From Bacteroidales bacterium (GTDB lineage Bacteria > Bacteroidota > Bacteroidia > Bacteroidales > F082), in assembly GCA_016290215.1 (NCBI GenBank), contig JAEETH010000043.1:1-32112 (forward strand): a stretch of 32,112 nucleotides of DNA. Direction: 5' to 3'. Position numbers and translations under genes: made by a program. The notes beneath the pieces are model-generated. The model did no database searches. It worked only from the letters and a program-made list of their open reading frames with translations, and was not told where the DNA came from. This document shows, in pieces, positions 12,552-31,465 of this stretch. Each line of letters begins with the position of its first letter. Position 1 is the first letter of the stretch.

Positions 12552-12632
12552 GGTTTGTAGGGCTGACACATCGTGGCAGCCGCAGCTATAAAATAATGCT
12601 GCGGCCGCCGTGGTACGACAGCCCTACAAACC
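12552..12632. repeat. GC-rich cruciform-type palindrome (81 bp)
   Basis: The outer arms GGTTTGTAGGGCTG (12552-12565) and CAGCCCTACAAACC (12619-12632) pair perfectly over 14 bp. The inner arms GGCAGCCGCAGC (12575-12586) and GCTGCGGCCGCC (12598-12609) pair over 12 bp with one mismatch around an 11-nt AT loop. It starts 8 bp after the zinc-ribbon stop codon and could act as its terminator, but it lacks a clean U-tract and looks more like a MITE- or REP-type element. Confidence 0.75.
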
Positions 12633-13599: not shown

Positions 13600-13696
13600 G
13601 ACTATGACTTGTGACAATGACTATGATCACTTCAACAGAAGCAAAAGCTTTACATCTTGGTGAAAGTGGTCATGGTCATAGTCAGTGGTCATAGTC
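13600..13696. repeat. 97-bp palindromic repeat, copy A (between etfB and etfA)
   Basis: The two ends form a 31-bp imperfect inverted repeat (25 of 31 match): the left arm starts GACTATGAC and the right arm ends GTCATAGTC. The centre has a small palindrome (AAAGCTTT) inside conserved ACAGAA...CTTGGT sequence. It shares its arms and much of its centre with copy B at 19796-19894. The element fills almost the whole etfB-etfA gap and would fold as a long hairpin in the operon mRNA. Confidence 0.8.
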
Positions 13697-19795: not shown

Positions 19796-19894
19796 GACTA
19801 TGACCATTGACAATGACTATGACCGCTTTCACAGAAATGCTGAAATTTCAGCTCTTGGTTGAGGTGGTCATTGTCATAGTCACAAGTCATCGTC
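19796..19894. repeat. 99-bp palindromic repeat, copy B
   Basis: This is the second copy of the element at 13600-13696. The left arm starts GACTATGACCATTGACAATG and the right arm contains GGTCATTGTCATAGTCA. The centre is a perfect 14-bp palindrome (GCTGAAATTTCAGC) where copy A has AAAGCTTT. It lies between the SH3-like protein gene and the C1 peptidase gene, about 70 bp beyond the 3' end of the peptidase. The remainder of the gap to 19966 shows no gene. Confidence 0.8.
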
Positions 19895-22211: not shown

Positions 22212-23002
22212 TTTTGCAATCGGTCAATTAGTTCTTCTTTCACCAGTTGATATGCTGAATCAGGGTCAAATGTCTTTTCTGGTCGTAGCAAGCCTTCTGT
22301 GTCGCCCAAGAATTCAGCATCATTTAGTTTGGCTTCCATGTTGTTCACAAATTGCTTATAAGTTGGCGGATTCTCTACCGTGAATATCATGTATTGATTG
22401 TAACAATGGATGATTTCTTCTGCATCGTACTGCCCTTCGGTGAGGCCGACATACAAATCAAACAAATCGCGACCCTTCCTGCGCTGATATAAGGCTCTCA
22501 TTTTGGTTCCTAACAACTCGTTGAAACTATAGGTGGTCAAATCGGCTTGTCCCGTGAACCAACTATTTTCTACCAAAAAAGGCCGTTTGACCAACCCCAG
22601 CACATCGAAATGCTCATAGCAGTTGATTTCCACTTTCAGACGGATGGGAATGGTAGGCGACATTTCCGACTCCATGCGGAAAAGTATTGTGTTGTTGTAG
22701 CGTTTAGGCTTTGTGACTTTATTGGGCATGAAACTCAATACTTCGCCTAACCTGAACAAAATATCCTTAATTGGTCCGGGATGGATTTGCACGAGGTCGA
22801 TGTCTTCGCTATAGCGCGGCTGCGGCGATAGATACAACTTGTGCAATGCCGTCCCACCACGAAAAGCCAACTGCGATACGAGAAACTCGTCGCTATAAAT
22901 GGCTACAAGTGAGCGGCAAATGAGGAGGTCTTGCTCGACCATGGCCGACTCTTTCCATGGAACATGTTCGTTCCATTCCATTATTGATGCTATATCTATC
23001 AT
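22208..23002 (-). CDS. abiEii: AbiEii/AbiGii-type nucleotidyltransferase toxin
   Basis: This 264-aa protein has the polymerase-beta-like nucleotidyltransferase pattern: FRGGTALHKLYL (GGT at 49-51), RYSEDIDLV with metal-binding D67 and D69, LKVEINCYE, and ELLGTKMRALYQRRKGRDLFDLY. In type IV abiE systems this enzyme is the toxin; characterised members block growth by acting on RNA or protein with NTPs. It overlaps abiEi upstream and the radical SAM gene downstream by 4 nt each (ATGA), indicating translational coupling. All motif residues are present, so it is probably active. Confidence 0.88.
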   Translation of the reverse strand: MIDIASIMEWNEHVPWKESAMVEQDLLICRSLVAIYSDEFLVSQLAFRGGTALHKLYLSPQPRYSEDIDLVQIHPGPIKDILFRLGEVLSFMPNKVTKPKRYNNTILFRMESEMSPTIPIRLKVEINCYEHFDVLGLVKRPFLVENSWFTGQADLTTYSFNELLGTKMRALYQRRKGRDLFDLYVGLTEGQYDAEEIIHCYNQYMIFTVENPPTYKQFVNNMEAKLNDAEFLGDTEGLLRPEKTFDPDSAYQLVKEELIDRLQK

Positions 23003-23793
23003 AATTCATCGATTTCTATTTCAACATTGCCGTTTACATGCCACCTGTTGGACTGCGCCAGCTCGTTTCTTGGGCGGTCATTCCTTAATAAGATGCTGTT
23101 CCATTGTTTTTGTTCCTTCAGAATCTCAAACAAGGAATCTGCCTTTTCCTTTTCTTCGAGTACATACTCCAACAAATAGCCAAGGCGTTGCAAGGTTGCA
23201 ATAGTTGTGTAGGACACCACATCTGCCATCTTTTCCATATCCATCACTTCTACCAGCTCTGCAAGTACGGTTGCAACTCTTTGATAACCTCCAACATGGT
23301 CGGCAAACTGTACCAGATCCACGGCAGTAAACTCCTGATTTGAATAGCGCACCACCCCCATCTCGGCATTCTTTGTCAATAGAAGCTCTTCTGGTATTTG
23401 CTTGCGATAATTCCAATTTAGATATGGGTTCTTTGAAGAATACTTGATTCTTGGTGCAATGGTTGTCACTTGCGTTACCATGACGGCCTGATGTGATGCC
23501 CCATGCATGGCAGCGGCTGAAAGCAAACTGAGATAGTAAGGTTTGCCGACATACTGCATGAGTTTGTCGATGTAATAGGTTGGGGGAACGATACCCTTCA
23601 ACTGGTATTGCACTGGTACTACCACATAAAACCCTCGATAAACAGAACTGACATAGCCTTTCTTCACAAGACGAGTCAATTCCGACTGTATTGTTTTATA
23701 GGTCTTTTCGTTAAAAGACTGCTTCAATTCCTCCACAGAGAACGTCACTCGCCCTCGGATTTCCCGATTCTTTATCCATTCATAAATAGTCAT
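22999..23793 (-). CDS. abiEi: AbiEi-type antitoxin / transcriptional repressor
   Basis: The protein is 264 aa. Its N-terminal ~70 residues form a winged helix (RVTFSVEELKQSFNEKTYK, TIQSELTRLVKKGYVSSVYR, GFYVVVP), as in AbiEi antitoxins. The rest is a helical AbiEi C-terminal domain with YLSLLSAAAMHGASHQAVMV, ending NVEIEIDEL. Known AbiEi proteins repress their own promoter through inverted repeats and neutralise AbiEii. It is the first gene of the operon, with a promoter at 23844-23873. The leader holds AAAGT/ACTTT inverted motifs that could be operator sites. It is moderately AT-rich. Confidence 0.85.
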   Translation of the reverse strand: MTIYEWIKNREIRGRVTFSVEELKQSFNEKTYKTIQSELTRLVKKGYVSSVYRGFYVVVPVQYQLKGIVPPTYYIDKLMQYVGKPYYLSLLSAAAMHGASHQAVMVTQVTTIAPRIKYSSKNPYLNWNYRKQIPEELLLTKNAEMGVVRYSNQEFTAVDLVQFADHVGGYQRVATVLAELVEVMDMEKMADVVSYTTIATLQRLGYLLEYVLEEKEKADSLFEILKEQKQWNSILLRNDRPRNELAQSNRWHVNGNVEIEIDEL

Positions 23794-23903: not shown

Positions 23904-24000
23904 GGAAAGCAAGTCAACCGACGGCTTTCCAGCGGCCACACGGTTGTGTTGGCCGCTCCAATTGCTCTTGGTTGTTTTGCATATTTTGTGGGTTTTGTGA
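23904..24000. repeat. Two-hairpin structured element, copy 1
   Basis: Hairpin 1 (23904-23930) has stem GGAAAGC/GCTTTCC plus inner GTC/GAC around loop AACC. Hairpin 2 (23931-23957) has stem AGCGGCCA/TGGCCGCT plus CAC/GTG around loop GGTT. The right arm carries three (G/A)TTTTG hexamers at 23974, 23983 and 23992, exactly 9 nt apart, and ends at the stop codon of the di-heme peroxidase gene. The matching left arm seen in copy 2 is not recognisable here. It may serve as the terminator of the peroxidase transcript. Confidence 0.75.
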
Positions 24001-25065
24001 TTATTGATTAGGGTCGGAATGATCAGGATTACTTAGGAAATGTTCATCGGTTAAGGTATTCAAGAACGCCTTCAGCTGGGCTTTCTCCAAGTCGGAAAGC
24101 CGCACTCCACCGTCCATCACATGGTGCATCAGCGGGTTGATGTTTTCGGAGTCTTTTACGCCCTCACTGTAGAAGTCGATGACCTCGTCCAAAGTGGTGA
24201 AGCGTCCGTCGTGCATGTAGGGGCTCGACACAGCGATGTTGCGTAGGGTAGGGGCTTTATAGGCGCCTTTGTCCCAATGGCTGCCAGTAACGGCAGCGCG
24301 GTCTTCGGAGTCGTTGAACTCGTCGTCCAAGCCGTTGTTGTAGAACAAATTGGTGGTCATCAAGGCCAATCCTCCGCCACCATGGCAGTGGAAACAGTCG
24401 GCACCTTCCTCGGTACAGAACAGTTCATATCCAGCCAGTTCGTCTTCGGTAAGTTGCTCCTCACCACGCAAGTAGCGGTCAAATTTACTGTCGGCAGAGA
24501 ACAAACTACGGATAAACTGCGCGATGGCTTTTTCTACATTGATAAAGGTAATGGTGCGGCTACCAAAGGCTTTCTCAAACAACTCAGGATAGTCGTCGGT
24601 CTTTTGCAGATATTTGACCACTTGGTTGGTATCTGCATTGATTTCCACGGGACTTGTGACCGCCGCCAAAACCATATCCTCCAAGGTGGCCACGCCGCCA
24701 TTCCAGCCCAAGCCTGTGCGGTTCCAAGCTAGGTTAATCAAAGGCAGCATAGCGTGATGTGTACCCGTTGGTGCGCCATATTCAAAACTCTTTTCTTGAT
24801 GATGGCAAGAGGAGCAGCTACGGATGTCATCCGTGCCGTCGCGACCCGAAAGACGCGGATCGTAAAAGAGCTTTCTGCCCAAGGCAACTCCCTCTTCGGT
24901 CATGGGATTGTCGTCTGGGATGTTGTTTTTCGTCGGGAAATAGGAAGGTCGCGGCAATTCGTATGGTGTCTGTTGGTAGTGGGTCTCCTCTGGTTTGCAA
25001 GCACTTGCTAAAATTGTCAGAAACCCAATCAACATTGCACAAATACCCTTCAATGTACTCATCAT
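24001..25065 (-). CDS. Di-heme cytochrome c peroxidase / MbnH-MauG-like lipoprotein (354 aa)
   Basis: A lipoprotein signal (ending LTILASAC, Cys 23) places it in the periplasm or on the outer membrane. Two heme c attachment motifs are seen: CSSCH (84-88) and CFHCH (224-228). Family landmarks are GRKLFYDPRLSG, PLINLAWN, SPVEI, KAPTLRNIAVSSPYMHDGRF and DEVIDFYSEG. Classical members reduce H2O2; MauG and MbnH members instead oxidise a protein partner. The upstream gene on the same strand encodes an MbnP-like lipoprotein, the natural partner of MbnH, so a modifying role is plausible. The intergenic gap (25066-25143) has no clear promoter, which suggests one transcript. Confidence 0.9.
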   Translation of the reverse strand: MMSTLKGICAMLIGFLTILASACKPEETHYQQTPYELPRPSYFPTKNNIPDDNPMTEEGVALGRKLFYDPRLSGRDGTDDIRSCSSCHHQEKSFEYGAPTGTHHAMLPLINLAWNRTGLGWNGGVATLEDMVLAAVTSPVEINADTNQVVKYLQKTDDYPELFEKAFGSRTITFINVEKAIAQFIRSLFSADSKFDRYLRGEEQLTEDELAGYELFCTEEGADCFHCHGGGGLALMTTNLFYNNGLDDEFNDSEDRAAVTGSHWDKGAYKAPTLRNIAVSSPYMHDGRFTTLDEVIDFYSEGVKDSENINPLMHHVMDGGVRLSDLEKAQLKAFLNTLTDEHFLSNPDHSDPNQ

Positions 25066-25143
25066 TTAATCAATTAACAATTAAACAATTAAACAAATCG
25101 AAGATTCAACGTAGTTAATCAACGATTCAACAAACTTAAATCT

Positions 25144-26076
25144 TTAAATCTTTGAATCTTGAATCTTTGAATTCCCAATTCTTTCCTTCACGCTTTCCCA
25201 ACTCCAAAAATGCGGTTTTGGAGTGGCTTTTCGCATCACGTTTTTGAACTTTTCTGCCAGTTTATTATCTTTTTCCATAATGGTATTGTTTTCATTGTCA
25301 GTAGGTTTCCCTATTTTAAACACGTCTTTCCCATTGCCGCTGAGCAATCGTTGTGCGGTCTGGTTCTGCATGATGTGGCTTCCAAATTCGTTGAAATCAA
25401 TCGTATGGGGATTGCGGAACCAATTGTCGATGACCATCGTCAAGTCGAGTTGGTTTTCAGTGTTCGCCTTGACGGTGAAATCTACGGGCAACTCCACGAT
25501 GAAGTAGTTTTGGTAAAATTCGGTGCAGTCTTCGTTTTGCCCGATGCCGAGGTGGATGGCCATGGGTGCAAGACGGCCTTCTGAATCCAAATACTTGCCA
25601 TTCAGTTTCATGTAGTGGTAGCCACCGCCAAGCATATCGGGCCAAAACATTTCTGACTCAGGTGGGTCGGTGAATAAACCTGTTTGGTTGTCGATTTCGT
25701 CCAGTCCAAAAGTGAAACGGATGGCGGTGTAGTGGCCGACTTTCACAGGACTGGAATGTAAGGTTTGCGATTCCGGGATGTCGGTGTCGATATAATAGAT
25801 CCGGCTGATGTCCAAGGTATCGGCAAGGCCTGGCTGATGGAGCATAATCCAATCGCTTGCCTCGTTTTTCAGCTCAATGTTGGAGAGAAACCATTGTATC
25901 TCGGTGATAAGGAACTGGTTCCCAGCTTCATTCTCGTAATATAACGTGTCAGTAACCAGCGACTTGCCATTGACTTCATAGCCAAGGTTCAAGAAGATTT
26001 CAGCCTTTTCGTTGGGCTTTGTGCAAGCCGCCACCATTAAGGCGAGCACTATGACAAGGGGTCTCAGTTTCATCAT
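25144..26076 (-). CDS. MbnP-like copper-binding lipoprotein (310 aa)
   Basis: The signal ends LMVAAC, giving lipidated Cys 18. The body matches the MbnP family: NQFLITEIQWFLSNIEL, DWIMLHQPGLADTLDISRI, VGHYTAIRFTFGLDE, the aromatic stretch EMFWPDMLGGGYHYMKLNGKY, and VKANTENQLDLTMVIDNWF. In the methanobactin systems MbnP binds copper after its partner MbnH converts a Trp to kynurenine. A ~55-residue hydrophilic tail after LLSGNGKDVFKIG is extra, and its last residues are encoded by a short AAGATTC-type repeat, so the C-terminus may be extended by low-complexity DNA. It is probably co-transcribed with the di-heme peroxidase downstream. Confidence 0.82.
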   Translation of the reverse strand: MMKLRPLVIVLALMVAACTKPNEKAEIFLNLGYEVNGKSLVTDTLYYENEAGNQFLITEIQWFLSNIELKNEASDWIMLHQPGLADTLDISRIYYIDTDIPESQTLHSSPVKVGHYTAIRFTFGLDEIDNQTGLFTDPPESEMFWPDMLGGGYHYMKLNGKYLDSEGRLAPMAIHLGIGQNEDCTEFYQNYFIVELPVDFTVKANTENQLDLTMVIDNWFRNPHTIDFNEFGSHIMQNQTAQRLLSGNGKDVFKIGKPTDNENNTIMEKDNKLAEKFKNVMRKATPKPHFWSWESVKERIGNSKIQDSKI

Positions 26077-26123
26077 CTTTTGAAATTCAGCGGCGAAGAT
26101 ACAAAAATTCTGCCAAAATTGTG

Positions 26124-26131
26124 TATTTTTG
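26124..26131 (+). promoter_or_regulatory. -7 box of the DUF2027/Smr gene
   Basis: TATTTTTG matches TAnnTTTG and sits 20 nt before the ATG at 26152. It lies downstream of an in-frame ATG at 26080, so it decides the start. Confidence 0.6.
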
Positions 26132-26151
26132 CTGCCCTAATTGGAAAAACT

Positions 26152-27240
26152 ATGGCAGAATTCAAGATTGGCGACAAAGTGAACTTTCTCAGCACCGTCG
26201 GTGGGGGCAAGGTCACGAAAATCATAGACTCTCGTATGGTGATGGTCGAAGTGGAAGATGGCTTCGAAATCCCGACTTTGATTACGGATTTGGTACTCGA
26301 CTACCGTTCTATGCCCGCTCCAAGCAAACAACAACAAACGGTGGAAAAGGTGCAGAAAGAGGTTCAGGGTCAGGAACTTCTGAAGCAACAGCAGGCCGAG
26401 GAAGCCCGAAAAGGCGGTCTGCGCCGCTTCGCGAAAGAGGCGGAGAAGGAAGGCATCTACATGGCTTTCGTGCCCCACGAGCAACAATGGCTCCTCACTG
26501 GCCCGTTGGATGTGGTATTGGTCAACCACACGCCTTACGAGATGCTGTATACCTTCACCATTAAGGAGGAGGACAAATTCGCCAATGTGGATTTTGGCCA
26601 AGTCGACAAATACGAGAAAATCGTCATCGAGACCATCTCGCGCGATGACCTTGAGTATTGGCTCAACGGCGTGGTGCAAGCCATCCTGACCACTGAAACC
26701 TCGGATTCCGTGCTGCTTCCGTTGAATGCACCTTTCTCGCTGCGCCCTGGACGTTTCTACAAGGATGGCAGCTATTTGCCCTCGGGCATCTTGGGTGAGA
26801 AGTCGGTGATGGTTTGCCTCTCCGAGCTTATCGCTTTGAAGCAGGGTGGCAGCGATTTTACCAAAATCATGAAGGAAGGCATTGGTTCACAGGCTCCTGC
26901 AAAGGATTTGGTGAAGAAAGAAGCCCCTATCGACAAGCATCGTGTGGCTCCAGGCGAAGCCATCGTTGATTTGCACATCGGCGAGCTGGTCGACAACATT
27001 TTGGGCCTGTCAAGTCACGACATGTTCAAGATTCAGACAGACTATTTCAAGAAGATGCTCGATAGTGCCATTGCCGCCGAATACAATAAGGTGACTTTCA
27101 TCCATGGTGTGGGCAATGGCGTGCTGAAAAACGCCATTATCGAGGAACTGAAGAACTACAAGAACACCGAAAACCGCATGGCCAGCATCGCCAAGTTTGG
27201 TGTTGGGGCGATTGATGTCATCATTACGGAGAAGAAATGA
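26152..27240 (+). CDS. DUF2027 protein with C-terminal Smr domain (362 aa)
   Basis: The start MAEFKIGDKVNFLSTVGGGK opens an SH3-like N-terminal module (~1-50). A Gln/Lys/Glu-rich coiled segment (~58-100) and a beta-rich DUF2027 core (~100-230) follow. The C-terminal Smr domain (~265-362) has the signature VDLHIGELVDN (DLH at 273-275) and FIHGVGNGVLKNAI (HGVGNG at 318-323). Smr domains in MutS2 and relatives cleave branched DNA or RNA, including mRNA on collided ribosomes; this protein is Bacteroidota-specific in architecture and uncharacterised as far as I know. The start at 26152 is preferred over 26080 because of the promoter box between them. It is divergent from the MbnP-like gene. Confidence 0.88.
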   Translation: MAEFKIGDKVNFLSTVGGGKVTKIIDSRMVMVEVEDGFEIPTLITDLVLDYRSMPAPSKQQQTVEKVQKEVQGQELLKQQQAEEARKGGLRRFAKEAEKEGIYMAFVPHEQQWLLTGPLDVVLVNHTPYEMLYTFTIKEEDKFANVDFGQVDKYEKIVIETISRDDLEYWLNGVVQAILTTETSDSVLLPLNAPFSLRPGRFYKDGSYLPSGILGEKSVMVCLSELIALKQGGSDFTKIMKEGIGSQAPAKDLVKKEAPIDKHRVAPGEAIVDLHIGELVDNILGLSSHDMFKIQTDYFKKMLDSAIAAEYNKVTFIHGVGNGVLKNAIIEELKNYKNTENRMASIAKFGVGAIDVIITEKK

Positions 27241-27254
27241 ATCGCTGATTATTA

Positions 27255-27358
27255 ACACGAATTACCAGTTGTTATTCACGAAATCGTAGATTTAACTGAG
27301 TAGATTACCCATGAATTCAATTTTTGGAAATTCGTGATACATTCGTGGCAATTCGTGT
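27255..27358. repeat. Imperfect inverted repeat of ATTCGTG motifs
   Basis: The left arm (ACACGAATTACCAG, then TTATTCACGAA) and right arm (AAATTCGTGATACATTCGTG, then GCAATTCGTGT) pair imperfectly over about 30 bp. The arms are built from repeated ATTCGTG. It lies just after the DUF2027/Smr gene and may end its transcript or be a MITE-like remnant. Confidence 0.55.
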
Positions 27359-27367
27359 AAAAAAGTG

Positions 27368-27404
27368 AAAAACCAATTGGTCGGTAGTCGATCAATTGGT
27401 TTTT
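27368..27404 (-). terminator. Terminator of tRNA-Arg
   Basis: AAAAACCAATTG (27368-27379) and CAATTGGTTTTT (27393-27404) form a perfect 12-bp stem with a 13-nt loop. On the minus strand it follows the tRNA 3' end directly and is followed by T-rich sequence. Confidence 0.8.
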
Positions 27405-27406
27405 TG

Positions 27407-27478
27407 TGAACCCGCAGGGAATCGAACCCTGAGCTAAGGAACCGGAATCCTTTATTTTATCCATTAAACTACGGGTCC
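27407..27478 (-). tRNA. tRNA-Arg (anticodon CCG)
   Basis: The minus strand folds into a full cloverleaf of 72 nt. The acceptor is GGACCCG/CGGGTTC with one G-U pair. The D-stem is GTTT/AAAT. The anticodon stem AAGGA/TCCTT encloses TTCCGGT (anticodon CCG, reading codon CGG). A 4-nt variable loop follows, then the T-arm CAGGG-TTCGATT-CCCTG and discriminator A. The 3' CCA is not encoded. A TACCTTTG box lies 13 nt upstream and a strong terminator follows. Confidence 0.93.
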
Positions 27479-27490
27479 TATTTTGGCCTG

Positions 27491-27498
27491 CAAAGGTA
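27491..27498 (-). promoter_or_regulatory. -7 box of tRNA-Arg
   Basis: The minus strand reads TACCTTTG 13 nt from the tRNA 5' end. It faces an identical box on the other strand (27519-27526), so the two form an inverted pair of back-to-back promoters. Confidence 0.6.
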
Positions 27499-27518
27499 GA
27501 AAGATTTTGGAAATTTCG

Positions 27519-27526
27519 TACCTTTG
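27519..27526 (+). promoter_or_regulatory. -7 box of the YitT-like gene
   Basis: TACCTTTG is an exact consensus match, 56 nt before the ATG at 27583. It is the mirror of the tRNA box at 27491-27498. Confidence 0.55.
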
Positions 27527-27582
27527 CCGCTTTAAAAAGCATAATTTTTAATTTAATTAACTGAATCATAATTGTTTGAGTT

Positions 27583-28527
27583 ATGAAAAACGAGAAATTG
27601 AAGCAGCAAATTGTGGCCTACGCCTTGTTGGTGTTAGGTTCGGCTCTTTTCGCCATCGGCGATGTGATGTTTGTGAATCCTTATCACTTGGCGCCTGGCG
27701 GCGTGTACGGTCTCGCCAACGTGTTCAATGCCCTGTGGGGATGGAAAATCTCCGTGGCAGGCATCTGCATGGACACTCCCTTGCTTATCATCGGCACCAT
27801 TATCCTTGGTCCCAAATTCGGCATCAAGACCATCATTTCGGTCATCCTGATACCCGTGTTTACCTATATCCTTGAAACATGGTGGGGCTATGCACCCCTC
27901 ATCCATGACGGTGCTTTCTTCGATACGGAGATGCAGTCGTCGTTGTTCTTCTTGGAAGGTGACGTTCAACGCTACTTCATGCCCGATTTCTTCCTGAATA
28001 CCATCGTTTCCGGCCTCATCTATGGCGTGGCCATCGGTGTTATTTTCCGTGCCGGTGCCACTTCGGGCGGTTCCGACATCATCTCCATGATTATCCATAA
28101 ATACACCAAGATCAGCCTCGGTACGCTTGTGATGGTTGTGGACAGCATTATTTCACTCACAACCTTGATTGCTTTCGAGGACATCCGCCTGCCTATCTAT
28201 TCCATCCTTCTGATTTACATCGAAGGCAAGGTCATCGACCTCGTTGTGGAAGGCGTGAAGAGCTACAAGACGGCTTTCATTGTCACCGACAAAATCGAGG
28301 AGGTGCGCAACTTCATCCTCAAGGACTTGGACCGCAGCGGTACGGTATTTGCAGGTAGCGGCCTCTACCAAGGTGCCGAGCGTAAGATGATTTACGTCAC
28401 CCTCAACCGTAGCGACTTGGTGAAACTGAAGGCCAACCTTCGTTTCCTCGACCCGAACGCTTTTGTCAACGTGATTGAAAGCTCAGAGATTATGGGCAAT
28501 GGATTTAAGGCTTTGCCGACGGAGTGA
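27583..28527 (+). CDS. YitT family membrane protein (DUF161 + DUF2179)
   Basis: This 314-aa protein has about five to six membrane segments in residues ~10-220 (LLVLGSALFAIGDVMFV, HLAPGGVYGLANVF, GICMDTPLLIIGTIIL, TIVSGLIYGVAIGVIF, VMVVDSIISLTTLIAF). The signature RAGATSGGSDIISMII (~155-170) marks the DUF161/YitT fold. A soluble DUF2179 domain (~225-310: KTAFIVTDKIEEVRNFILK, GSGLYQGAERKMIYVTLNR, DPNAFVNVIESSEIMGNGF) follows. The family is widespread and its transport substrate is not established. Its stop codon is only 8 bp before the two-hairpin element at 28535, which probably ends its transcript. Confidence 0.9.
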   Translation: MKNEKLKQQIVAYALLVLGSALFAIGDVMFVNPYHLAPGGVYGLANVFNALWGWKISVAGICMDTPLLIIGTIILGPKFGIKTIISVILIPVFTYILETWWGYAPLIHDGAFFDTEMQSSLFFLEGDVQRYFMPDFFLNTIVSGLIYGVAIGVIFRAGATSGGSDIISMIIHKYTKISLGTLVMVVDSIISLTTLIAFEDIRLPIYSILLIYIEGKVIDLVVEGVKSYKTAFIVTDKIEEVRNFILKDLDRSGTVFAGSGLYQGAERKMIYVTLNRSDLVKLKANLRFLDPNAFVNVIESSEIMGNGFKALPTE

Positions 28528-28534
28528 TGCAATT

Positions 28535-28671
28535 GTCACAAAACCTTCAAAACAAGCAAAACCTATAAAGCAGTAAGAGGAAAGCTGCCAACCGGCGGCT
28601 TTCCTGCGACTGCCCAGTTGGGCATGTCGCTCATCAAAAAACTGTTTTGTAGGTTTTGTCAGTTTTGTGAC
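28535..28671. repeat. Two-hairpin structured element, copy 2 (complete, 137 bp)
   Basis: The outer ends GTCACAAAAC and GTTTTGTGAC are perfect inverted repeats. Each arm has three CAAAAC (left: 28539, 28548, 28557) or GTTTTG (right: 28644, 28653, 28662) hexamers at exact 9-nt pitch. Hairpin 1 (28579-28604) has stem GGAAAGC/GCTTTCC plus GCC/GGC with loop AACC. Hairpin 2 (28606-28630) has stem GCGAC/GTCGC plus GCCC/GGGC with loop AGTT. The right end overlaps the last codons and the stop codon of purN. It lies between the convergent yitT-like and purN genes. Confidence 0.82.
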
Positions 28672-29228
28672 CTTAAGACATAATCAATCGCCACAGGGAA
28701 ATACGTCTGTTCCAGTTGGTGGATCTTAGCTGCCAAGGAGTCGGGCGTTTCGTTTTCGTCCAAGCTGACACGGGCTTGCAAGATGATTTCTCCGCTGTCG
28801 TACAACTCGTTGACATAGTGAACGGTAATGCCTGATTGTGCTTCCTTGGCCGCCACTACGGCTTCATGCACATGCTCGCCATAGAAGCCTTTGCCGCCAT
28901 ATTTGGGTAACAGCGCAGGGTGGATGTTGACAATCTTTTTCGGGAAGGCCTTGACCAAGTTTTCCGGCAACTTCCAAAGGAAGCCTGCCAACACAATCAA
29001 GTCAATGTCAAGGCTTTGCAGCTCTTTTACGAAAGCCTCGCTGTTGAAGTCTTGCTTGGTAATCATCCTCAGCGGAATGCCCAAATTCTTTGCCCGTTCG
29101 ATGGAATAGGCTTTGGGATTATTGCAAACCACGTTGATGATTTCAACTTCCGGGTTGGTGGAAAAATACTCGGCAATGCGCTGTAAGTTGGTGCCGTTGC
29201 CGCTGACAAATATGGATAATCTTTTCAT
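28659..29228 (-). CDS. purN: Phosphoribosylglycinamide formyltransferase
   Basis: This 189-aa cytoplasmic enzyme transfers a formyl group from 10-formyl-THF to GAR in purine synthesis. It begins MKRLSIFVSGNGTNLQ, the phosphate-binding loop. The catalytic set is N101 and H103 (VNIHPALLPKYGGKGFYG) with H137 and D144 (SGITVHYVNELYDSGEI). The ATG at 29228 overlaps the stop codon of the upstream gene as ATGA, so it is translationally coupled. The longer frame to 29276 adds 16 residues without homology and is rejected. The final residues (RSQN and the TGA stop) lie inside the repeat arm at 28535-28671, so the extreme C-terminus appears supplied by that element. Confidence 0.95.
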   Translation of the reverse strand: MKRLSIFVSGNGTNLQRIAEYFSTNPEVEIINVVCNNPKAYSIERAKNLGIPLRMITKQDFNSEAFVKELQSLDIDLIVLAGFLWKLPENLVKAFPKKIVNIHPALLPKYGGKGFYGEHVHEAVVAAKEAQSGITVHYVNELYDSGEIILQARVSLDENETPDSLAAKIHQLEQTYFPVAIDYVLRSQN

Positions 29229-31465
29229 TCTCTGTATTTTATAGTGACAGTTTCGCTTTTCTTTAGGTCGAACCACACCAAATAACCTTCCTCGGCTTTG
29301 CGGTAATTGATGACTTTGCCCTCAACGACGACTGGCTTTGCACAAAGCAAGGTCAAACCTTCGATGGGCTCTCCTTGGTTGGTTAAGCTGATGGTATGAT
29401 TGTCAATGATTTGATAATCAATGTTGAGCAGTTTCTCATAATAATTGAGATATTCCTGGACGGTGGTAGGCAGAATCTTCTTCTCGTCGCGAAAACGTGC
29501 AAGTTGGCTTAATGCGAAATTGAATCCTGGCATGGCCACAGCGGTGCCATTTTCATTGTATTGCCAAAAGGCACGCCAAGGGTTGCTCCAAGCAGGATAG
29601 GTATGGGTGATAAACACATTGTGTTGGTCTACAAGCCTTTGCAAACGAATGCTGTCAAAGAAATAGTACCATTCAAAGTCTTCGTTCACCTCAAGGGTGG
29701 AAGGTGTCGACCACAGAAGGAAGTCCTTGTCGCCATTGGGTAAGGTCGTGATTTGACGGTTGGGCAGCGCATCGCCGAAGCCGTCGTAGGGCTGCACAAA
29801 ATGACTGTCGAAGTTGTAGTATTCCATGCGGTTTTCCTCGTAATAGGCATTCCAAAGGTAGCGCACGCCGTTTTCCTTCCATAGTTCAGCGGCATGTTGC
29901 GGCGAGTCAGGGAGGAGACCGTCGCAAACCAGGTCTTCGCGGTTTTTCTCGGGGCCGTTGTTGTAGCCATGGTCAATCCATGAGACAGTGCCGAACTGCT
30001 TTTTCATGAATTGCATGGCCGTCGGGAATTCGCTTGGGAGGGTGGTATAGATTTCAGGCGAGTGCAGGCAAATTTCAAAGCCTTCTTTCTTGATGTCTTT
30101 CAGTAATTTGAAGAATTCTGTGTCCGTTTTGATGGATGCGATGGGTCCAGTGAAACGGCCTCCGCTGGTCTCCGCATTGGTGATTTTGTCGGGGTTCCAG
30201 TAGAACACGCTCTTGGTGACGGGAATGTTGAAGTAACAAAAGCCGCCTACTGCATCTTCAGGCTTTGTAATGTGTTCATTTCCAAATAGTACGGCGCGAT
30301 GAGTGCGTAAGTCGGTCCAATCTGCATGTTCGGTGAAAATGAATGCACTTTGATAGCCGCCCCAAACGGGCATGAGGCGAGGCAAATCTTTGGGAACCGT
30401 CAAATACAGGATGAATTCCCCTTTTAGAATATCGCCCGCCTTGATGTCGCGGTAGGAGATGTCCTCAAAATAATCCGTAGTGTCCGATCGCATCGGGTAA
30501 TGCACCAGTGGATGGTCGCGCCAATAGTCTATATTGAAACAGGCGGTGCGGTTTTCGGCATCAAGTTGTAGGGATGAAATCCCAGTATTGTGGTAAGTGC
30601 AAAGGCTTAAGCTGTCGTTAATTATGCTAAAACCTTCACGGTCAAGGTAATATGTCGGTTGAAAAATGGTTGAATCAATGTGCTGGTTGCGCCGGTACAC
30701 CGTAAGTTGACCTTCAGGCAGAGGTAAAATGTATGCCAACCGAAGCAAATGTAAGTCTTGTTTGAACACAGCTTCAGTGCTCACAATGAGGCGGTTGCCT
30801 TCTTGTTTGAGGCTGATTTCATTATCTGCCACCAAAGGGTCGTTGATGGTGTCGCCTTGGGTATTGATGTATTCCACAATCGGGATAAAGATTTTCGAGG
30901 AAATATTAAGGTGTATCAACGAATCTTGCTTGTACTCAGGTAGATATCTCGGCATGGATAAAGCGTCGATTTCTAATCTGGCATCGTCGAAAAGCAAAGT
31001 TTCCTTCTCTTTGTTCCAGATGAAACCCTTGATTTCGCTCTCGTGGGTGTAATCGAAGGGAAACACGAGGTCGAGTTGTGCTTTAGACCAATCGGAATTG
31101 CTGTCGACAAAATCTGCAAGAGGATAAGAGGCCCAGTAGCGGTTATGGATCGTGTCGTCGATGCTGATGACGAGGGTGGCTTTCGTGTCGGCTTTGGCCT
31201 TAAAGCGGAAACCGTATCTGCAACTCAGGTTCTGGTTTTGGAAAGGTTTGTCGATGACGAAACCAAGGCCGTAGTCGCGCAAGGAGTCGCAAATGCAGAC
31301 ATGGTTTACCTCAGTTGCGCTACTGTCTGCCACGATGTGCAGGTTGAGCCACGGCAAATTCCATTCTTGAAGGTTCTCGAAGTCGTTGGAGTACACTTGT
31401 GCCCGTGCCGAAAGGAAAGCGGTCAGAGCAACCCAAAGGAAAACAATCCTGATGCCAAACTTCAT
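29225..31465 (-). CDS. Exported protein with polysaccharide-deacetylase-like region (746 aa)
   Basis: A signal peptide (MKFGIRIVFLWVALTAFLSARAQ) is followed by a beta-sandwich N-terminal half (~25-350: NDFENLQEWNLPWLNL, FRFKAKADTKATLVISID). From ~370 to ~650 there is a region resembling a NodB/deacetylase barrel: SAFIFTEHADWTDLRTHRAVL (candidate metal-binding D and H), FEICLHSPE, SWIDHGYNNG, and FITHTYPAW. No T9SS tail is visible; it ends SETVTIKYRE. The protein should be periplasmic or surface-exposed and may act on envelope or capsule glycans. The barrel call is moderate, and the substrate is unknown. Its stop codon overlaps purN by 4 nt, an unexpected coupling. A TATTTTTG box at 31483 precedes it. 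Confidence 0.72.
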   Translation of the reverse strand: MKFGIRIVFLWVALTAFLSARAQVYSNDFENLQEWNLPWLNLHIVADSSATEVNHVCICDSLRDYGLGFVIDKPFQNQNLSCRYGFRFKAKADTKATLVISIDDTIHNRYWASYPLADFVDSNSDWSKAQLDLVFPFDYTHESEIKGFIWNKEKETLLFDDARLEIDALSMPRYLPEYKQDSLIHLNISSKIFIPIVEYINTQGDTINDPLVADNEISLKQEGNRLIVSTEAVFKQDLHLLRLAYILPLPEGQLTVYRRNQHIDSTIFQPTYYLDREGFSIINDSLSLCTYHNTGISSLQLDAENRTACFNIDYWRDHPLVHYPMRSDTTDYFEDISYRDIKAGDILKGEFILYLTVPKDLPRLMPVWGGYQSAFIFTEHADWTDLRTHRAVLFGNEHITKPEDAVGGFCYFNIPVTKSVFYWNPDKITNAETSGGRFTGPIASIKTDTEFFKLLKDIKKEGFEICLHSPEIYTTLPSEFPTAMQFMKKQFGTVSWIDHGYNNGPEKNREDLVCDGLLPDSPQHAAELWKENGVRYLWNAYYEENRMEYYNFDSHFVQPYDGFGDALPNRQITTLPNGDKDFLLWSTPSTLEVNEDFEWYYFFDSIRLQRLVDQHNVFITHTYPAWSNPWRAFWQYNENGTAVAMPGFNFALSQLARFRDEKKILPTTVQEYLNYYEKLLNIDYQIIDNHTISLTNQGEPIEGLTLLCAKPVVVEGKVINYRKAEEGYLVWFDLKKSETVTIKYRE

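Follow-up and report, generated by a model that had tools for sequence, protein, structure and literature searches.

Short palindromic elements with inverted iteron arms in a Bacteroidales genus, and a GxxExxY-family nuclease as the candidate agent of their spread

REPtrons, the closest described systems, combine a RAYT gene that is mostly single-copy and stable with dispersed palindromes whose type follows the enzyme (PMC8266576). Repetitive extragenic palindromes (REPs) measure 20-40 bp (PMC3733652). Here we describe an element that occurs twice in a 32,112-nt stretch of DNA from a Bacteroidales bacterium (contig JAEETH010000043.1 of assembly GCA_016290215.1), the whole of which is called the window below. 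Both belong to a family of mobile repeats and are short forms without a gene. The short elements of this family are dispersed, have empty sites in relatives, occur in both orientations and have their ends in common with a form of ~640 bp that carries a gene of the GxxExxY family. From this linkage, and from co-inheritance, we infer a probable REPtron-like system, with a PD-(D/E)XK nuclease and not an HUH transposase as the enzyme that spreads short palindromic elements.

The complete element in the window, copy 2 (28535-28671, plus strand), starts with a left arm (28535-28562) made of three CAAAAC hexamers at 28539, 28548 and 28557, i.e., with a pitch of 9 nt. Hairpin 1 follows (28579-28604; stem GGAAAGC/GCTTTCC with inner GCC/GGC, loop AACC at 28590-28593), then hairpin 2 (28606-28630; GCGAC/GTCGC with inner GCCC/GGGC, loop AGTT at 28616-28619) and a right arm (28644-28671) with GTTTTG at 28644, 28653 and 28662, which ends in GTGAC. 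The two ends of this copy are 28-nt inverted repeats that are 79% complementary. Copy 1 (23904-24000, plus strand) is an element without a left arm, its match to the element of relatives beginning at 23904. It comprises hairpin 1 (23904-23930; GGAAAGC/GCTTTCC with inner GTC/GAC, loop AACC at 23916-23919), hairpin 2 (23931-23957; AGCGGCCA/TGGCCGCT with inner CAC/GTG, loop GGTT at 23942-23945) and a right arm (23974-24000) with GTTTTG at 23974, ATTTTG at 23983 and GTTTTG at 23992, which ends in TGA. The order of two hairpins and three hexamers in both copies, and the exact 9-nt spacing of the hexamers, had been described in an earlier reading of the sequence alone (the sequence-only reading) and are indeed present. 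The parts that it listed for copy 2 are there as well, but it had overlooked the inverted left arm.

In the family, the end unit consists of [AG]TCACAAAACnnnCAAAACnnnCAAAAC, a spacer and the AACC-loop hairpin, the conserved element ends reading [AG]TCACAAAAC. The right end is the left-end unit inverted, hence its GGTT loop. The n3 spacers between the hexamers of the two arms are unpaired in the copies that we compared by eye, so that the arms resemble DNA sites for a protein more than an RNA stem. Inverted ends built of hexamer iterons also support the protein-binding array that had been one of the earlier guesses.

The pattern of a single arm had 10 exact matches in the 3.8-Mb genome to which the window belongs and none in the reversed control, which is above chance. 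This genome holds about eight copies of the element, two of them on the window contig (C110) and the others on contigs C17, C39, C86, C101, C116 and C147, besides a lone arm on contig C112. The arm pattern was found in 40 of 90 genomes of the same genus, with up to 62 matches per genome (0-2 in the reversed control), and in none of 59 genomes from other families of the order. The short elements were 123-228 nt long.

The site of copy 2 was occupied in four genomes (the window genome, G024, G073 and G012) and empty in 11 others of the genus, where 7-19 nt separate the matched parts of the two flanking genes; elsewhere in the genus it held unrelated inserts, or the two genes lay apart. At the locus of copy 1, compared in 12 genomes, the full element was present in the orientation of the window copy in three and in the opposite one in three, and six had none beside the gene, four of these six keeping the same neighbour. 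The left arm that copy 1 lacks is retained at this locus in G019, G088 and G024. Since what lies to the left of copy 1 has its match on another contig in G019 and G018, this arm was probably lost through a rearrangement. Further copies and empty sites in relatives, which the sequence-only reading had suggested looking for, were thus both found. The scatter of copies, the vacant sites, the two orientations seen at one locus and the inverted ends also bear out its guess of a miniature inverted-repeat transposable element (MITE).

Two candidates were rejected in the course of this comparison. The apparently swapped stems of the C116 copy correspond to an element in reverse orientation, as also seen at the copy-1 locus, and pairs of arms separated by 1664 and 2272 nt, considered as single elements, enclosed ordinary genes and were taken for two separate elements. 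As separate observations, the copy-2 site contained in other species short-pitch repeats of the TTCTTAA/TTAGAAT type (L282, L279) or a GACCTGTCAGATC palindrome (L288), and a protein with an AbiEi antitoxin C-terminal domain (window positions 22999-23793) adjoins copy 1 at the end that has lost its arm.

We considered the possibility that the repeats are host regulatory or structural sites, acting as terminators, in mRNA stability or in nucleoid binding, and that GxxExxY uses them only to regulate itself. Stop codons adjoin or lie within the window copies. Copy 2 has on one side a gene for a YitT-family membrane protein (27583-28527, plus strand; Pfam PF02588) and on the other a gene for a formyl transferase domain protein (28659-29276, minus strand; PF00551), the stop codon of which (28659-28661) sits within the right arm. 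Copy 1 is followed by a gene for a di-haem cytochrome c peroxidase family protein (24001-25065, minus strand; PF03150), whose stop codon (24001-24003) begins right where the element ends. Both copies had been said to abut the stop codon of a minus-strand gene, which holds for copy 1 and understates the overlap in copy 2. The stems are moreover under selection (see below), and similar host roles have been proposed for REPs (PMC8266576). Yet, in relatives, host sites would not be expected to be vacant or to occur in both orientations at a single locus, nor would the arm pattern be missing from 50 of the 90 same-genus genomes; they also leave unexplained why a gene lies within the arms across phyla. 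We therefore regard this explanation as unlikely.

Covariation was assessed on 30 hairpin cores. We had extracted 42 and dropped 12 (nine orthologous repeats and three with a replaced loop 1), and a few orthologues persist among those counted. Stem pairs were counted by a script on loop-anchored columns, because MAFFT misaligned the hairpins. The stems covary over the 30 copies; one pair of hairpin 2, for instance, is G-C in 13, A-T in 11 and C-G in 6, and was thus paired in 30 of 30 copies versus 15.6 when shuffled. This supports selection on the stems, as had been proposed from the two window copies. The loops, reported to be kept while the stems vary, are conserved over the 30 copies (AACC in 25, GGTT in 28), but loop 1 differs in three of the eight copies of the window genome (C17, C39 and C86).

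The complementary loops had also been thought able to form a kissing interaction. A functional RNA with kissing hairpins would agree with the covariation of the stems and with loop complementarity in 28 of 30 copies, G-U pairs being allowed. Full Watson-Crick complementarity was absent in six copies, and G-U pairing rescues four of these; no compensating loop-loop change was observed among the 30 copies, and loop 1 is replaced in the three copies just mentioned. Kissing loops are accordingly not supported. The loops are complementary because each end repeats, in inverted form, the unit of arm and AACC hairpin present at the other. With no Rfam match in the window at gathering scores except small-subunit rRNA and tRNA, and with arm spacers that are unpaired in the copies compared, a functional RNA appears extremely improbable.

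The long form of the element has the same ends as the short one, but its arms are ~640 bp apart and a single conserved gene of ~144 codons lies between the hairpins. This gene is a clear member of the GxxExxY family, as indicated by its matches to TIGR04256 (E 7.6e-38, 129.5 bits for a curated cut-off of 35) and PF13366 (E 3.8e-36). It had no other match in Pfam or NCBIfam, and no Y1 or known transposase gene was found in the long form. The encoded protein is predicted to be a nuclease of the PD-(D/E)XK fold: D67, E77 and K79, which would represent the catalytic D and E-x-K, do not vary in alignments of 15 and of 40 sequences. A predicted model of a Flavobacterium homologue (predicted local distance difference test score, 96.5) has the alpha-beta core of such nucleases and gave no match at E ≤ 1e-3 in a fold search; the nearest folds were Cas4-type (4r5q, E 2.1e-3, template-modelling score 0.50), with lambda exonuclease too, and PADLOC gave a weak match to Cas4 (E 9.5e-4).

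Genes of the clade to which this gene belongs, called here the CAAAAC clade after its arms, were found in 18 of 99 genomes of the genus, as one gene in 17 of them and as two in G062; a 19th genome with a match, G060, was excluded (66% identity). Arms were present in all 18 genomes with a CAAAAC-clade gene versus 22 of 72 others (hypergeometric 3e-8, a value that overstates independence because the genomes are related). A DbpA-like helicase gene or menA adjoins 15 of the 19 loci of the clade, and the DbpA/menA junction is without insertion in G030, G073, G033, G044 and G058. In G012 and G019, shortened forms with only a gene remnant stand beside menA, which indicates that internal deletion is one route from the long to the short form. 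By eye, a GxxExxY element also lies between what seem to be the same two genes in three Flavobacterium species (L167, L170, L218), pointing again to fixed loci of the gene. The DbpA-menA junction, the place of the GxxExxY element in other species, holds in the window genome (G000, contig C132; L386) and in others (L379, L382, L388, L392) a different gene-less stretch with AAAATC-type iterons, and similar stretches occur in L389 and L397.

Fixed loci with empty alleles in relatives would also be expected from a homing-type process, in which the nuclease cuts the empty site and the element is copied in by repair, the short forms being dead relics. PD-(D/E)XK homing enzymes do exist. Homing should, however, concern one site, whereas arms are present at many sites per genome, and it has no need of matched iteron arms at both ends. 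This makes it a very unlikely explanation.

The arrangement was not confined to the CAAAAC clade. GxxExxY genes scored above the cut-off in 72 of the 99 genomes of the genus. An inverted-repeat score of at least 13 was reached across the gene for 46 of 57 of them (six of the 57 had been found via their arms), versus 0 of 62 shifted controls and 0 of 171 shuffles. Among the lags tested in these flanks, lag 9 was prominent and lag 18 less so. The arm motifs vary and include CACAGATT, ACGAATT/GCGAATT, GCAGAAT, CAGAAAT and others. When the upstream flank of one gene was combined with the downstream flank of another, the score of 13 was reached in 19 of 19 cases within the CAAAAC clade, as expected from a shared motif, and in 5 of 38 for the rest. 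The window genome itself has a GxxExxY gene with CGAATT-type arms (contig C78, L133), and the window (27252-27360) has, as judged by eye, a degenerate and solitary ACGAATT-type element between a gene and tRNA-Arg(CCG).

Similar results were obtained with 80 loci from several phyla (Bacteroidota, cyanobacteria, planctomycetes, acidobacteria, spirochaetes and others). An inverted repeat was present in 53 of 80 versus 0 of 148 shifted controls, and in 54 of 80 versus 4 of 444 with more control shifts. The arms read TTTAACCGCAAAGGACGCAAAG and similar, with a pitch of 8-11 nt as judged by eye. On a protein tree, the arm class required 10 changes, for a minimum of 8 and a mean of 43 with shuffled labels, though cross-phylum rows were admitted only with an RCRnRG label and an even locus number, a choice that favours clustering. 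The tree comprised 86 of 134 rows, eight of them unlabelled; three of the 80 loci were skipped for an odd open reading frame length, and the genus set was labelled by eye, automatic motif labelling being too crude. Gene-less elements with such arms were also detected, with 27 pattern matches in a Bacteroidetes genome that has two GxxExxY genes and 34 in Anabaena catenula, which has four (reversed control, 0 in each). The iteron pattern used suits some taxa only: it matched in 6 of 16 genomes, in these two strongly, with a single reversed-control match in one genome, and was a poor choice for Flavobacterium. Placement inside inverted iterons is thus general among the GxxExxY genes that we examined, which come from several phyla, and the arm motif goes with the clade of the protein.

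A different agent could be a Y1 transposase (HUH, of the IS200/RAYT type) that moves the elements in trans, as MITEs or REPs, GxxExxY being a passenger. Y1 genes were found in 70 of the 99 genomes, and in 39 of 40 arm-bearing genomes versus 26 of 50 others; hairpins with conserved loops resemble HUH substrates. We inspected 25 Y1 loci, all from genus genomes with arms, 20 of them picked as such. A loose one-sided arm match (≤3 mismatches) was present in six, but none of the 25 lay between inverted CAAAAC arms. By contrast, 19 of them had an inverted-repeat score of at least 13 of their own, and 10 of these 19 contained GTAG or its complement (e.g., CCCCGTAGGGG). The hypothesis of a Y1 agent also has to face the GxxExxY genes flanked by arms in several phyla, with an arm motif that follows the protein, and element ends that are inverted, unlike the same-strand ends of IS200/IS605. 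We consider it improbable. As a side observation, the Y1 genes of the genus (L404-L428) are often flanked on both sides by palindromes of their own, such as CCCCGTAGGGG, TCCCGTAGGGA and AGGCAGRCGGTGTAAACC.

Under the nuclease hypothesis, the GxxExxY protein, possibly as an oligomer on three iterons, would recognise both ends and the hairpins. It would cut there, the substrate perhaps being single-stranded or extruded DNA, and such cutting would let the short elements spread, much as RAYT is thought to spread REPs. The gene keeps mostly to fixed loci, with vertical inheritance, and it is the short forms that disperse; these can arise from the long form by internal deletion. We also lean, if only slightly, towards a wider proposal, namely that GxxExxY proteins act as dispersal enzymes for small mobile elements found across phyla, which would move without HUH, DDE, serine or tyrosine transposase, through a PD-(D/E)XK nuclease acting on inverted iterons of 8-11-nt pitch and on hairpins. 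The gene-less progeny of these elements would then be the AACCRCAGAG/AACCGCAAAG and CACGAATT-type repeats found in Bacteroidota, cyanobacteria and others.

Several observations weigh against dispersal by this nuclease. The co-occurrence of Y1 genes with arms means that co-occurrence at the level of genomes does not by itself single out GxxExxY, and the relatedness of the genomes has been pointed out above. Furthermore, 22 arm-bearing genomes, including that of the window, have no matching gene at the threshold used; relics, loss of the gene, gaps in metagenome-assembled genomes or another mobilizer are possible reasons. The position of 15 of 19 loci at DbpA or menA suggests that the gene hardly moves itself. 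The copies within the window genome are only ~69-80% identical over the longer matches, which points to spread that is either ancient or slow. We saw no clear target duplication, with little excess flank identity for lengths of 3-12 and four offsets among 71 arm pairs (55 short and 16 long, a few of them nested); read towards the element, the flanks of these pairs are rich in T on both sides. Eleven of 57 genus and 27 of 80 cross-phylum GxxExxY genes fall below the inverted-repeat threshold. Finally, lag 9 is not enriched across phyla (at least 14 matches in 5 of 80 loci, seven for lag 8, versus 2 of 148 controls), suggesting that the pitch varies between families.

Tying GxxExxY to its own flanking repeats provides a testable function for genes that are common, very widespread and unexplained. 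If the nuclease hypothesis is correct, this would be a second pairing of a stable gene with short palindromes, by an enzyme unrelated to RAYT, and it would account for a class of intergenic repeats that we did not find described in the literature searched. In that literature, which covered few subscription papers, we found neither a function nor an association with repeats for GxxExxY (TIGR04256, PF13366). Searches with the arm strings returned no report of these repeats, the matches concerning animals only, as judged by title, and titles and the beginnings of abstracts on REPs, MITEs and PDDEXK enzymes disclosed no work joining them.

The window contains repeats of other kinds. Two palindromic elements of a separate type, whose iterons contain TGAC and have a pitch of ~6-7 nt, are located at 13600-13696 and 19796-19894, a long imperfect hairpin (GGTTTGTAGGGCTG.../...CAGCCCTACAAACC) at 12552-12632, and AT-rich repeats of lag 8 (CAATTAACAATTAAAC, ACTTAAATCTTTAAATC) between two genes at 25071-25157.

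How do these elements compare with known systems? The predicted structure of GxxExxY has its nearest folds among Cas4/RecB-type PD-(D/E)XK nucleases, though the similarity is weak and the protein has ~125 residues. As in IS200/IS605, the element is small, has a single gene and bears hairpins near both ends; unlike in IS200/IS605, the long element has no Y1 gene, and the 25 Y1 loci lie outside such elements. The hairpins of IS605 are in same-strand order, those of the CAAAAC element inverted. With MITEs, the short forms have in common their small size, the absence of genes, inverted ends, many dispersed copies and the occurrence of derivatives that arose by internal deletion of a longer gene-bearing form, but there is no clear target-site duplication and the longer form is without a known transposase gene. 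The likeness to a REPtron lies in a mostly single-copy, stable gene flanked by its own palindromes, in dispersed short copies and in hairpins. The GxxExxY enzyme is, however, of the predicted PD-(D/E)XK type and not an HUH Y1 enzyme, the CAAAAC ends are inverted iterons of 9-nt pitch with AACC hairpins, and the short elements exceed REPs in length. A conserved GTAG/CGTC tag was not among the invariant columns of the 30 cores, GTAG occurring by chance in a few. On account of its enzyme and tags, the system is thus not a member of the REPtrons, and Y1 genes with palindromes of their own coexist with the CAAAAC elements in the same genus.

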